Of a DNA stretch of 18,177 nucleotides, positions 13,080 through 18,177 are shown piece by piece. This DNA is from an uncultured bacterium. Its GTDB lineage: Bacteria; CAIJMQ01. Below the pieces are notes generated by a model that had not been told where the DNA came from, made no database searches, and saw only the letters and a list, made by a program, of their open reading frames with translations. The stretch is taken from NCBI GenBank assembly GCA_903821905.1, contig CAIJMQ010000106.1, positions 1 through 18,177 on the forward strand. Reading direction: 5' to 3'. The position numbers and the translations under genes are program-made. The first letter of the stretch is position 1; each line of letters starts with the position of its first letter.

Positions 13080-14468
13080 TTACTGACTACTACCAATTAA
13101 CTTCTCCCCTATCTTATATACATCTCCTGCCCCGATAGTTAATACAATATCATCTGGTTGGACTGTATTTTTTAGATATGCAACCGCTTCTTCCTTCTCT
13201 TGGAAATATAATGGCAATGCACCAAGTTTTTCCAAGTGATTACAAATTAGTTCTGATGTTACTCCCGGAATTGGCTTCTCGCTGGCAGCATAAATAGGTA
13301 TAAGAATAGGAATATCAACATCTTTAAGAACTTCAGCAAACTGACAAGCAAAATGTTGTGTACGAGTATATCTGTGCGGTTGAAATATGGCAATTTTTCT
13401 CTTCGGCTTTAATTCATCTGCCATTTGCAGTGTTGCTTTTATCTCGGTTGGATGATGTGCATAATCATCTACAACTAAAGCCCCTTTATATTTACCTTTT
13501 ATCTGGAACCTACGACCTACCCCTTTAAACTGCGGCAAAATTTCTACCATTTGCTCCCACTTAAGTCCATAATGAAGCCCAATTACAATAGAAGGAAGGA
13601 CATTTTTCACATTGTGAATTCCTAATAGGGATATTTTCATTCTACCCAGATATTTACCTTTAAAATTCACATCAAAACATTTTTTACCGTTATCTGTTTG
13701 AATATTGGATGCATAGATTGTGTTGGATGATTCTATGCCATAGGTAATCACCTGTGCTTTAATATTTTTTTTCTGCGTAAGTAACATATCTTTTACGACT
13801 TCATCATCTCCGCAAGCCAAAAGCCATCCTCTATCTTTTATATTTTGAATATATTTTAAGAAAGCATCCTTAAGATTTGCAAAAGTTTTGTAGTGGTCAA
13901 GATGTTCTGCTTCTATATTGGTAATTACCTCAAATGACGGTGATAGCAGCAGGAATGAACTATCAGATTCATCAGCTTCTGCCACAAACAGATCTTTATC
14001 GCCTATATGGGCATTACCTCCAAGATCTTCTACATCACCGCCAACAATAAATGTCGGATTAAGTCCTGCACGCAACAGGAGAAAAGATATTAAAGAAGAC
14101 GTAGTCGTTTTCCCATGAGTACCACAGACTGCAATTCCTGTACTGTTGTCCATTAAATGCGCCAGCATCTGACCCCTCGAAAAAATTTTTAACCCTTTTT
14201 GTTTTGCAACGAGAAGTTCTGCGTTGTCGGGGGAAACAGCGCTGGAATAAACCACTGTCCTTGCATTTCCAACATTACCTTCTTTATGAGAGAGATATAT
14301 TTTCACCCCTAATAAAGCAATCCTCTTGGTATATACATTTTCCTGTACATCAGAACCCTGCACCTTGTATCCCTTTTTAAGCAAAATATAGGCAATACCA
14401 CTCATTGAACATCCGCCAATACCTATAAAATGAACTGGATCATGTAACTCAAATTTATTATTGGACAT
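13080..14468 (-). CDS. murC: MurC: UDP-N-acetylmuramate-L-alanine ligase
   Basis: MurC adds L-Ala to UDP-MurNAc using ATP, the first peptide step of murein synthesis, in the cytoplasm. The 462 residues contain FIGIGGCSMSGIA, which binds the UDP sugar, the ATP loop GTHGKTTT (116-123), EADESDSSFL, the block EAEHLDHY, and the MurC-type motif DDYAHHPTEIKATL. It is the last gene of the murein cluster, 11 bases after murG. No clear ribosome site is seen before the ATG; the leader is A-rich. murB, ddl and ftsQ, frequent followers of murC, are absent, and its stop directly abuts that of dprA. Confidence 0.96.
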   Translation of the reverse strand: MSNNKFELHDPVHFIGIGGCSMSGIAYILLKKGYKVQGSDVQENVYTKRIALLGVKIYLSHKEGNVGNARTVVYSSAVSPDNAELLVAKQKGLKIFSRGQMLAHLMDNSTGIAVCGTHGKTTTSSLISFLLLRAGLNPTFIVGGDVEDLGGNAHIGDKDLFVAEADESDSSFLLLSPSFEVITNIEAEHLDHYKTFANLKDAFLKYIQNIKDRGWLLACGDDEVVKDMLLTQKKNIKAQVITYGIESSNTIYASNIQTDNGKKCFDVNFKGKYLGRMKISLLGIHNVKNVLPSIVIGLHYGLKWEQMVEILPQFKGVGRRFQIKGKYKGALVVDDYAHHPTEIKATLQMADELKPKRKIAIFQPHRYTRTQHFACQFAEVLKDVDIPILIPIYAASEKPIPGVTSELICNHLEKLGALPLYFQEKEEAVAYLKNTVQPDDIVLTIGAGDVYKIGEKLIGSSQ

Positions 14469-14479
14469 TTAGATGTTTT

Positions 14480-15568
14480 TTATTTTATATACTTATAGAT
14501 TTCTTCACATATTCTTTCTAATGCGTCATTTTGTAATATATCCTTCATATTCTTACTCATAAGCTTTAATTTGTCAGAATCATTTAACAACTCTTTGAAG
14601 TTTTCAGGAAAATTATCTTCTTTAATATCTTCTTGTTTCAAGAGATAAACTCCACCCCTTTCTTGAAAATAACGCGCATTGTACTCTTGATGATTATCTT
14701 TTGCATAAGAATAAGGGACAATCAAAGCTGATATACCCCAAAAAGAAAGTTCAGAGAGTGAAAGGGCTCCACCCCTTGAAACTGCCAAATCAGATATTTT
14801 ATAAGCACAATCAATTGGATATAAAAAAGGTAATACTACCGAGCGTATTTTAAAATTTACGTATCTATTCTTAACTCTTACATAATCACTTTTCCCAGTA
14901 ATATGAATTATCTGCCAATCATTAAAATTACTAATTTCTCCCAATACGTTTATAAACCAACTATTAAGTGAAGAAGCCCCTTGTGAACCACCGAAAACAA
15001 GAAGAGTTTTTTTATTAATATCTAATTCCAATTTTTTATAGCACTCCCTTTTATCTAAATTGGATTTGTGTTTTCCCACTGGATTTCCCACTAAAACAGA
15101 CTTGGAATTTGGGAAAAAAGAATTAGGAAAAGCAAGAAATATTTTTGTGGCGAATTTACCCAAGAAAACATTTGCTTTTCCAGATACTATATTCTGTTCG
15201 TGAATAAAAAGGGGTATTCTCAAAAAAAAAGCAGATACTCCAGCAGGTACACTTCCAAAACTTCCCGTAGCCATTACTATATACGGTCTATTACAACTTA
15301 AGAATAGAAAAGAATCAAAGGTAGATTTCAGCATTGCTAAATAATAGAATAAAACTTTGGCAATTATATTTGTTTGGTTAGAAGAAATAGGGAGGTTAAC
15401 GAAAGGGATTTTTTCTGTTTTAAGTATAGTCTGAAATTCTTTTTTTATTGGGCCTAAAAATATAGTTTCTATATTATAGTTTTGTCTTAAATGTTCAGCT
15501 ACTCTTAACCCAGGGAAAAAATGGCCGCCCGTCGAACCTACTGATATAATTATTCTTTTGGGAAATAT
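14480..15568 (-). CDS. murG: MurG: lipid I to lipid II GlcNAc transferase, apparent ATA start
   Basis: MurG transfers GlcNAc from UDP-GlcNAc to lipid I at the inner face of the membrane, giving lipid II. The conserved N-terminal block IIISVGSTGGHFFPGLRVAE is encoded in frame well upstream of the first ATG (15334), so a start there would delete the acceptor-binding GGTGGH loop. Between the preceding in-frame TGA and this block there is no ATG, GTG or TTG. The best start is ATA at 15566-15568, seven bases after AAGGAG, giving 362 residues, the normal length. Other landmarks are GSFGSVPAG, FGGSQGASSLN and the UDP-GlcNAc site SRGGALSLSEL with PYSYAKDNHQ. It follows pilZ copy A by 27 bases. ATA as start is inference; a base error in an ATG is the main alternative. 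Confidence 0.9.
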   Translation of the reverse strand: MFPKRIIISVGSTGGHFFPGLRVAEHLRQNYNIETIFLGPIKKEFQTILKTEKIPFVNLPISSNQTNIIAKVLFYYLAMLKSTFDSFLFLSCNRPYIVMATGSFGSVPAGVSAFFLRIPLFIHEQNIVSGKANVFLGKFATKIFLAFPNSFFPNSKSVLVGNPVGKHKSNLDKRECYKKLELDINKKTLLVFGGSQGASSLNSWFINVLGEISNFNDWQIIHITGKSDYVRVKNRYVNFKIRSVVLPFLYPIDCAYKISDLAVSRGGALSLSELSFWGISALIVPYSYAKDNHQEYNARYFQERGGVYLLKQEDIKEDNFPENFKELLNDSDKLKLMSKNMKDILQNDALERICEEIYKYIK

Positions 15569-15575
15569 TGTATTT

Positions 15576-15582
15576 CTCCTTA
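15576..15582 (-). promoter_or_regulatory. Ribosome binding site that fixes the murG ATA start
   Basis: The minus strand reads TAAGGAG here, a strong Shine-Dalgarno sequence seven bases before the in-frame ATA at 15568. It sits in the right half of a 16-bp palindrome (15574-15589), whose left half TTCTCCTT is complementary to the ribosome site. With no loop bases the palindrome cannot form a normal small hairpin. Confidence 0.65.
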
Positions 15583-15595
15583 AGGAGAAGAGATA

Positions 15596-16054
15596 TCATA
15601 ACAATACCTTCTCCAACCTTGCTTTTACCAGTTGTTCAAGTAAATCCTGGAATTCCCCTTCTGCATCTATCTTCAAAAATTCTACACCTGTATCATGGGT
15701 ATATCCTAAAGCATGTCCAAGAATTCGTTTCTTTCTCCATGCTACTTTTGCCAATATATGGAAAGGTACTTTTCTGGTAGGACTAAAAATTTCTACGAAC
15801 ACTTGCGTTTCGGGAGGATAATCTTTACTAGTTGTAAAACATATGCCGCCTATGGACATATTTTTGGCTATACTTATATCATTATCTTCTAATTCTTTAA
15901 AAGTAATAACATGTTGATTTTCCTTGTTAGAGCCCTCTCCATCTTTTCTAACTCTAATAAAAAAAGGATAATCAAGTCTTACGTATTTCCTTCTTTCTGG
16001 CCCCTTATATTCAAGGGTATTTGTTCTTTCACTTCTACGTTCTATTTTATCCAT
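15596..16054 (-). CDS. PilZ-domain protein, copy A
   Basis: PilZ domains bind cyclic di-GMP and act as receptors. The first motif RxxxR is R22-R26 in RRKYVRLDYPF. The second, [D/N]xSxxG, is N65-MSIGG-70, so this copy uses Asn. A beta-barrel follows (ETQVFVEIFSPT, FHILAKVAWRKK, GVEFLKI), then a C-terminal helix (LLEQLVKARLEKVLL). At 152 residues it is essentially a lone PilZ domain with a charged N-terminal tail of about 14 residues. It is about 64% identical (89 of 138 aligned residues by hand) to copy B, 30 bases upstream, with no gaps. AAGGA lies nine bases before its ATG. Its place between ftsW and murG suggests a link to septal or cell-wall growth, but ligand and partner are unknown. Confidence 0.85.
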   Translation of the reverse strand: MDKIERRSERTNTLEYKGPERRKYVRLDYPFFIRVRKDGEGSNKENQHVITFKELEDNDISIAKNMSIGGICFTTSKDYPPETQVFVEIFSPTRKVPFHILAKVAWRKKRILGHALGYTHDTGVEFLKIDAEGEFQDLLEQLVKARLEKVLL

Positions 16055-16084
16055 AATTAGAATTCCTTTTTAGGAGAAAAATTA

Positions 16085-16528
16085 TCATAATAATACTTTC
16101 TCCAATTTTGTTTTTACAAGTTGCTCAAGTAAATTTTTAAATTCATTTTCCCCTTCTATTTTTAAAAATTCTATTCCCATTTCATATGTGCCACCAGAAG
16201 AACTGCCCAAGATTCTTTTTTTTCTCCATACAACTTTGCCCAATATATTAAATGGGGTTTTTCTAGTGGGGCTGAAAACTTCAACATTTACAAGGCTCCC
16301 TGGAAGATAGTCTCTACTTGTTACAAAACGTATTCCACCTATTGATATATCCCTAGATATACTTATATGATTGTCCTGTAACTCTTTGAAACTCATAAGA
16401 GAAGGTTTTTCTGCAATATTTGCCTCACCATCTTTTGTGACACGAATAAAAAAAGGATAGCCAAATCTCAAGTACTTTCTTCTGTCTGGCCCTTTATATT
16501 CAGAAGGTGTCGTCTTCTCGTCTTTCAT
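16085..16528 (-). CDS. PilZ-domain protein, copy B, coupled to ftsW
   Basis: A lone PilZ domain of 147 residues. RxxxR is R17-R21 in RRKYLRFGYPF, and the second motif D60-ISIGG-65 keeps the standard Asp, so cyclic di-GMP binding is plausible. The barrel strands (VNVEVFSPT, FNILGKVVWRKK, GIEFLKI) and the C-terminal helix match copy A. Its ATG overlaps the ftsW stop (ATGA, 16525-16528), and a G-rich ribosome site (AGAGGGGG) lies seven bases upstream inside ftsW, so it is translated together with ftsW. That tight coupling is the best evidence for a role in FtsW-dependent septal synthesis, though it remains inference. Confidence 0.88.
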   Translation of the reverse strand: MKDEKTTPSEYKGPDRRKYLRFGYPFFIRVTKDGEANIAEKPSLMSFKELQDNHISISRDISIGGIRFVTSRDYLPGSLVNVEVFSPTRKTPFNILGKVVWRKKRILGSSSGGTYEMGIEFLKIEGENEFKNLLEQLVKTKLEKVLL

Positions 16529-17637
16529 GTTAATACCCCCTCTTCAATGTTTTTATTTTTACCAATATTAAGTAGAATGCCAACAGATGTCAAGTTGACT
16601 ACCATGGAACTACCACCATAGGATATGAATGGAAGACATAAACCCTTAGTAGGAAGAATGCCTGTACTTACTCCCATATTTATAAATGCCTGAAGTACTA
16701 TTAAAAGAATAATTCCTAATGCAAGGAAAACCGCAAAATCATCTTTGGCTTCTTTTGCCTTTAATACAATCCGAAAACCTAGAATAACAAAGACAACATA
16801 TAGAAGTATTATAGTTATTGTACCTAAAAATCCTAATTCTTCTCCTATTATAGAAAAAATGAAATCATTATAAGAAGAAGGTAAGAAAAAAAGTTTCTGT
16901 CTTGAAGCGCCGAATCCTTTACCAAAAATCTTTCCTGAACCGATAGCGATAATAGATTGTATCAATTGGAAGCCTGCACCTTGAGGATCTTTGTAGGGAT
17001 TTAAAAAAGCAATTATTCTTTCCTTTCGGTACCCACCTCTAAATATAAGATAATAAACCACAGGTAGTGAAAAGAAAAATAGTGAAAATATGTAAATAAG
17101 ATTGCCTCCGCCAACAAAGAATAGAATCAAGGTAATGGCAGTAATAAGAGCCGCTGTGCCAAAATCTGGTTGCATAAGAAGTAGGATTACAAGTGCTGAA
17201 AGAATAAAAAGAGGAGGGCATAGTCCCTTAATAAAACTTTTAACTTTTACTTTTTTCCTTGATAGAAAATCGGATATATATACAATAAAGAAGAGTTTAG
17301 AAACTTCGGAAGGTTGAAAAAGGAAACTGCCAATCTTCACCCATCTCTTTGCACCACCTGCATGATAGCCTAAGGGACTAATAGATAATAATAGTAGAAA
17401 TATCGCAGATAATATGAGAGGCTTACTTATAAACTTCCAATTAGAATATGGGAAATGGTAAGCAAAAATTAACCCCGCACTACCAATTAATAACCATATA
17501 AGTTGCTTGTAGAAAAAGAAATAACTACTTCCGAATTTATCTCTTGCATACGCTGAAGACGCGGAATAAACCATTATGATCCCAATCGATGAAAGAAGAA
17601 TAACTATCAGAAGTAACATAAAATTTGTCTTATCCAT
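16525..17637 (-). CDS. ftsW: FtsW: septal peptidoglycan polymerase (SEDS family)
   Basis: FtsW is a multi-pass membrane glycosyltransferase that polymerises lipid II at the division septum with a class-B PBP. The 370 residues carry about ten hydrophobic segments. SEDS signatures include IGIIMVYSAS near the start, the GGAKRWVKIG and QPSEVSK block, LLMQPDFGTA, and the C-terminal MGVSTGILPTKGLCLPFISYGGSSM. I place the start at 17637 (MDKTNFMLLLIV): the frame is open for 40 more codons upstream, but those overlap the murD end in another frame. ATGGATAA gives an eight-base overlap with murD. A position between murD and murG favours FtsW over RodA. Confidence 0.93.
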   Translation of the reverse strand: MDKTNFMLLLIVILLSSIGIIMVYSASSAYARDKFGSSYFFFYKQLIWLLIGSAGLIFAYHFPYSNWKFISKPLILSAIFLLLLSISPLGYHAGGAKRWVKIGSFLFQPSEVSKLFFIVYISDFLSRKKVKVKSFIKGLCPPLFILSALVILLLMQPDFGTAALITAITLILFFVGGGNLIYIFSLFFFSLPVVYYLIFRGGYRKERIIAFLNPYKDPQGAGFQLIQSIIAIGSGKIFGKGFGASRQKLFFLPSSYNDFIFSIIGEELGFLGTITIILLYVVFVILGFRIVLKAKEAKDDFAVFLALGIILLIVLQAFINMGVSTGILPTKGLCLPFISYGGSSMVVNLTSVGILLNIGKNKNIEEGVLT

Positions 17638-18177
17638 AGAGTTTTTTGAGTTTATGAAAAATATCTTTAAATACTTTTCCTCTCTCTTTGTAATCTGTAA
17701 ACATATCAAAAGAAGCACAAGCCGGAGAAAGTAGAATTTTATCTCCAGATTTAGCATTATTTAATGCATTATCTACGGCTTCTTCCAAGGTGCTATATTC
17801 AAAAACAGGGACTACCCCTTTAAGAACTTTTTTAATTTTTTCTTTACTTTCGCCAATTGCAAAGATAGACTTTACTTTTTCTCTGATAAGTTTTTCTACT
17901 TGAGAATAATCATTCCCTTTATCTCTTCCACCTAATATAAGAAGTAAAGGTGATTTAAGTGTAAGGAGTGCTTTTTCGACACAGTCAACATTTGTAGATT
18001 TGGAGTCATTTATAAACTCAACTCCTTTTATTTCTCCTATTTTTTCCAAGCGGTGTTCCAAATTTTTAAAACTCCTTAAACCTTTTTCTATCTCAATTTT
18101 ATCCAAATCAAAAAGTTTTGCTACAGCTATTCCTGCAAGACAGTTTTCCAAATTATGGTCTCCATATAAAGGAAATA
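17630..18177 (-). CDS. murD: MurD, C-terminal part (5' end outside window)
   Basis: About 181 C-terminal residues of UDP-N-acetylmuramoyl-L-alanine D-glutamate ligase, which adds D-Glu in murein precursor synthesis. The frame is open to the right edge, starting with the central-domain motif GDHNLENCLAGIAVA, so the TTG at 18151 is internal and not a start. C-terminal domain landmarks are EHRLEKIGE, FINDSKSTN, LLILGGRDKGNDY and LLSPACASFDMFTDYKERG, all typical of MurD. The N-terminal UDP-binding and ATP-loop parts lie outside. It is the first gene of the visible minus-strand cluster and overlaps ftsW. Confidence 0.95.
   Translation of the reverse strand, partial: FPLYGDHNLENCLAGIAVAKLFDLDKIEIEKGLRSFKNLEHRLEKIGEIKGVEFINDSKSTNVDCVEKALLTLKSPLLLILGGRDKGNDYSQVEKLIREKVKSIFAIGESKEKIKKVLKGVVPVFEYSTLEEAVDNALNNAKSGDKILLSPACASFDMFTDYKERGKVFKDIFHKLKKLYG

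Follow-up and report, generated by a model that had tools for sequence, protein, structure and literature searches.

Results and Discussion

Two pilZ genes lie between ftsW and murG

The window, i.e. the whole stretch of 18,177 nucleotides analysed here, is contig 106 of a draft genome of 1.30 Mb that is 84% complete. Its minus strand carries, in this order, murD (cut), ftsW, pilZ copy B, pilZ copy A, murG and murC. The murD-ftsW-murG-murC order of the standard cluster is present on one strand, and the PilZ genes separate ftsW from murG. Copy B (16085-16528, minus strand) encodes a single-domain PilZ protein of 147 aa and copy A (15596-16054, minus strand) one of 152 aa. Both scored above the curated Pfam cut-off for PilZ (PF07238, 22.5 bits), copy B with 46.4 bits and copy A with 40.7 bits, and PilZ was the sole Pfam domain in either protein. 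An earlier note on this DNA had described two PilZ genes at this place, with RxxxR in both copies, DxSxxG in copy B and Asn at the Asp position in copy A. The open reading frames, the profile scores of the PilZ proteins and of their FtsW and MurG flanks, and the motifs themselves (RKYLR and DISIGG in copy B, RKYVR and NMSIGG in copy A) confirmed this description.

The SEDS polymerase gene ftsW (16525-17637, minus strand) was identified by Pfam (360 bits) and by TIGR02614 (387 bits, above cut-off). Its start was corrected from 17757 to 17637 using the N-termini of related proteins, which have 362 aa and begin with MNK[IT]NFML; by this comparison 17637 is most likely the true start. Upstream, the 3' part of murD (17630-18151, minus strand) is truncated by the contig end; a complete MurD is encoded at this place in the relative G002. 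Downstream, murG (14480-15568, minus strand) was recognised from its translation and the Pfam MurG domains. No ATG, GTG or TTG was found ahead of its conserved N-terminal motif in the window sequence. An in-frame ATA at 15566-15568 (minus strand), 7 nt after AAGGAG, is likely to be the start as judged from its position; it looks like a rare start codon or an assembly error, and murG of relatives starts with TTG. The last gene of the cluster is murC (13080-14468, minus strand), 71% identical to murC at the same position in G001 and G002. The murG ribosome-binding site lies within a palindrome, TTCTCCTTAAGGAGAA, at 15574-15589, and a portion of this palindrome is found again after copy B. We considered and rejected a structured RNA switch at the junction of pilZ and murG; local folding was no better than that of shuffled sequences (z about -1).

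The earlier note had also reported an ATGA overlap of copy B with the ftsW stop, and a strong ribosome site. This was seen: the ATG of copy B (16528-16526) and the TGA of ftsW (16527-16525) share an ATGA overlap (16525-16528, minus strand), and a putative ribosome-binding site, GAGGGGG (16536-16542, minus strand), lies 7 nt upstream of copy B within the ftsW 3' end. The start of copy B is supported by its N-terminus, MKDEKTTPSE, which resembles MKNKKITDSE of its orthologs. As a conserved feature, translational coupling of ftsW and pilZ was ruled out, since the relatives G001 and G002 lack the overlap and about 50 bases separate the two genes there. A possible internal promoter ahead of copy B (TTGACA-17-TAATAT, 16593-16565) was likewise discarded: 26 such sites were present as compared to 20 expected, and the sequence here belongs to the conserved coding region of FtsW.

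The two copies are tandem duplicates with intact PilZ motifs

Copies A and B share 62% protein identity. Sequence common to both was found at both gene ends and continued beyond the stop codon into the spacer, which identifies them as products of a tandem duplication, as the earlier note had assumed. The age of this duplication relative to the genus split is read differently from two features: a site pattern of 5 to 2 leans weakly towards an older duplication followed by loss, and the shared spacer favours a younger one.

RxxxR and [DN]xSxxG were kept in all four PilZ proteins encoded in the cluster, namely copies A and B and the two orthologs from G001 and G002. The suggestion that Asn in copy A reflects different tuning of the two copies was not upheld. 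The second PilZ motif is given as D/NxSxxG (PMC3131395), so Asn is an ordinary residue at this position; furthermore, both single-copy orthologs carry it. Altered ligand binding by copy A on account of Asn was ruled out on the same grounds.

AlphaFold modelled copy B (pLDDT 70, pTM 0.66) as a six-stranded PilZ barrel with a C-terminal helix. Its best structural matches were MotI/DgrA, MrkH, MapZ complexes, YcgR and BcsA (Z about 11-12.6); a profile-based sequence search of solved structures gave no match. In these respects the copies resemble single-domain PilZ receptors of the DgrA/PA4608/MapZ type (PF07238), which have one PilZ domain with RxxxR and D/NxSxxG and a barrel with a C-terminal helix. 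They differ from that type in being arranged in tandem, in lying inside a peptidoglycan cluster and in a longer stretch between the two motifs. This stretch is shorter in YcgR-type proteins too. Other PilZ types were not recognised: the N-terminal YcgR domain of YcgR/MotI-type flagellar brakes is absent from these proteins of 147-152 aa, PilZ and glycosyltransferase are on separate ORFs and not fused as in BcsA, and both motifs are complete, unlike those of the degenerate Xanthomonas protein XCC6012. The four cluster copies share a strongly conserved C-terminus, LLEQLV..xLEK[VI]LL, from which the paralogs differ; this may mark a candidate surface for a partner.

The position of pilZ is inherited within one family

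Seven genomes of the phylum (G000-G006, with G000 being that of the window) were compared. G000-G003 form family f1, and G004-G006 a sister family, f2, of the same class. Database relatives with names are draft genomes under the labels Candidatus Omnitrophota and Candidatus Ratteibacteria. G001 and G002, which belong to another genus of f1, each have one PilZ gene, located between ftsW and murG and sharing their strand; a PilZ ortholog was thus found at this place in both other genomes of the family in which the region is assembled. Their proteins are 75% (FtsW), 63% (MurG) and 54-66% (PilZ) identical to those of the window, with 64-66% for copy A. The G002 cluster reads ftsI-murE-murF-mraY-murD-ftsW-pilZ-murG-murC. 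Genes and order are those of the standard cluster, from which f1 differs by the one or two pilZ genes between ftsW and murG. G003 (81% complete) is uninformative, since neither ftsW nor murG was detectable there. In f2, contigs of G004 and G005 end at or soon after ftsW; in G006, the sole testable genome of this family, ftsW overlaps murG and the slot holds no gene. The PilZ search returned one distant PilZ protein from each f2 genome and nothing more.

The neighbourhood survey proposed in the earlier note covered 154 genomes from across Bacteria, almost every one of a different family. They were searched for murG and ftsW, and coordinates were paired by script. A pair required both genes on the same contig with ftsW upstream of murG within 4 kb, and 96 genomes had one among the matches listed. 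Among these matches, 91 of the 96 genomes had no more than 300 bases between the ftsW and murG profile matches, which leaves no room for a PilZ gene. The gap exceeded 300 bases in five: the three f1 genomes, G104 and G062. No recognised protein family was found within the gap of G062. PilZ occupied the slot in 3/3 f1 genomes tested and in 0/93 others among the matches listed. A wide search for the subfamily returned few, distant matches beyond the family; those that were checked adjoin neither ftsW nor murG.

The position of PilZ between ftsW and murG is inherited across two genera of one family. According to the earlier note, PilZ genes confined to this genome, together with a lack of ligand or partner binding, would point to chance insertion. 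Confinement to this genome was not observed: the slot holds PilZ in two genera and is free of it in the 93 other pairs among the matches listed. One orthologous PilZ at the same place in two genomes of another genus, in which FtsW is just 75% identical, argues against chance insertion.

As a separate observation, opposite-strand ORFs, one of them encoding a PIN-domain protein, lie between ftsW and murG in G104 (L116 2130-3754). They are likely to be a mobile insertion in an essential operon.

Cyclic di-GMP signalling and wall synthesis in these genomes

The genome of the window encodes four GGDEF proteins, all with the GG[D/E]E[FL] signature and two of them also with RxxD. GGDEF enzymes occur in the relatives too; their GG[D/E]EF is intact, and some of them have the inhibitory RxxD site. 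Six PilZ proteins are encoded in the window's genome: the two cluster copies, three FHA-PilZ fusions and one separate paralog. Judged from these sequences, cyclic di-GMP signalling is likely to operate in this organism and, as intact diguanylate cyclases are present, cyclic di-GMP is the likely ligand of the cluster PilZ proteins.

Each of the genomes G000-G006 apparently has a single SEDS polymerase and a single clear PBP transpeptidase. The search for FtsW/RodA-family proteins gave only one in each of six of the seven genomes, and none was detected in the seventh; FtsZ was present in all four f1 genomes. All drafts are incomplete, and the pattern of one SEDS protein and one PBP recurs in drafts that are 92% and 96% complete. 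This suggests that the class is without a separate elongation (RodA/PBP2) system and that the cluster probably serves all wall synthesis. Hence, a regulator encoded here would sit with the main wall machinery and not with a division-only set, which moves the idea of septum placement in the earlier note towards overall wall synthesis.

A proposed link to peptidoglycan synthesis

Cyclic di-GMP is best known for its roles in motility, biofilm formation and polysaccharide export. Two stand-alone putative receptors for it would here be co-produced, from one operon, with peptidoglycan precursor enzymes and apparently the only SEDS polymerase. Cyclic di-GMP made by the GGDEF proteins would bind the PilZ copies; the bound proteins would contact FtsW (or FtsI) or MurG at the cytoplasmic face, and this contact would turn glycan synthesis up or down, in the manner of the PilZ domains of BcsA and Alg44. 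A cyclic di-GMP signal may in this way tune cell-wall growth in the family.

Action on a membrane glycan enzyme is proposed by analogy. Cellulose synthase BcsA is gated by cyclic di-GMP via its PilZ domain (PMC12564702), and Alg44 provides PilZ control of alginate synthesis (PMC10519070). The likeness lies in a PilZ module beside a membrane glycan polymerase and in the proposed logic of action; in the window PilZ is a separate protein, the polymerase FtsW is unrelated to BcsA, and control is a proposal. In Escherichia coli, the diguanylate cyclase YfiN (DgcN) halts septal wall synthesis, and its authors allowed for an unknown cyclic di-GMP-binding factor (PMC4992967). Cyclic di-GMP signalling meets septal peptidoglycan synthesis there too, but YfiN is a cyclase that binds FtsZ and ZipA, with neither a PilZ protein nor a link to the ftsW operon. 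Two recent reviews of cyclic di-GMP receptors leave peptidoglycan unmentioned (PMC12564702, PMC10519070), and a literature search by titles, abstracts and term counts returned no PilZ protein tied to FtsW, MurG or the dcw cluster. The protein family is a known one; what is new, within the reach of this search, is its fixed position in a wall cluster.

The steps of this proposal differ in strength. We hold with good confidence that copies A and B are cyclic di-GMP receptors, and they likely bind the product of the genome's own GGDEF proteins. That the ligand-bound copies contact FtsW (or its FtsI partner) or MurG and change glycan synthesis is a weaker, analogical step. The full chain, from receptors made by the wall operon to action on FtsW (or FtsI) or MurG, is put forward tentatively, and direct gating of the single SEDS polymerase (FtsW) or MurG by the receptor pair appears rather doubtful. 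If such gating occurs, a second messenger would control all peptidoglycan synthesis, a control point without description for any PilZ protein in the titles and abstracts searched. With a PilZ gene fixed by inheritance between those for the septal polymerase and the enzyme that forms lipid II, a direct link to wall growth can be tested using purified proteins; the case also shows that a very conserved gene junction is able to acquire and retain a regulator.

About equally plausible is co-expression only, with the essential operon merely ensuring steady production in growing cells of cyclic di-GMP receptors whose target lies elsewhere, such as a type IV pilus or secretion ATPase or exopolysaccharide synthesis; we give this reading the same tentative standing as the full chain. 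Placement of PilZ genes in housekeeping operons, such as FHA-PilZ genes after secA and a related gene between those for a PilB-type ATPase and a PilC-type protein in G003, suggests that they settle readily near unrelated genes, and a paralog adjoins unrelated PAP2 and Memo genes. A shared operon is no proof of a shared pathway, and these cases count against a target in the wall machinery, as does the lack of conservation of the precise coupling to ftsW. Yet pilZ stays between ftsW and murG even though overlap and spacing vary, and the slot is almost always empty in genomes outside the family among the matches listed. Furthermore, PilZ paralogs elsewhere in the genomes form a separate clade (support 100/100), so the cluster copies constitute a distinct, stably placed lineage.

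Neutral retention, with one landing in the family's ancestor kept as harmless and the second copy a drifting duplicate, is improbable. Occurrence in one small family only is in its favour, as are the longer branch of copy B in the PilZ tree and a pilZ dN/dS of 0.6 within genus g2, where the same pair gave 0.5 for murG and differences are few. Against it, dN/dS was about 0.1 both between the copies and between genera (dS saturated), consistent with selection on both copies, and the binding motifs are intact in all four. Compact genomes, here of 1.3-1.5 Mb, also seldom keep neutral genes. Least probable of all is that the copies are scaffolds or sensors of another nucleotide: some PilZ proteins, e.g. 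XCC6012, bind no cyclic di-GMP (PMC3131395) and the inter-motif loop of copy B is badly predicted (residues 38-53, pLDDT <50), but both motifs are complete, unlike in XCC6012, and diguanylate cyclases are present in the genome.

Other PilZ genes

Additional PilZ genes were located in the f1 genomes. Two tandem FHA-PilZ fusions lie directly downstream of secA in the window's genome (L056 3865-5426, G000 contig 30), and reading of phosphothreonine and of cyclic di-GMP may be combined in one protein there; neighbouring PilZ-domain genes also occur in G001, G002 and G003. A further short PilZ gene is the one between the PilB-type ATPase and PilC-type protein genes (L051 12118-12504, G003 contig 27). 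The separate paralog is present in all four f1 genomes (L052 6010-7187; equivalents in L050, L053 and L054), where it adjoins a 267-aa ORF (Memo-like in G000) and is divergent from another of about 200 aa, which in G000 encodes a PAP2 phosphatase. The third FHA-PilZ gene is divergent from a glycogen debranching enzyme gene (L055 7203-8036, G000 contig 62); in Streptomyces, the debranching enzyme GlgX is activated by cyclic di-GMP (PMC10519070).
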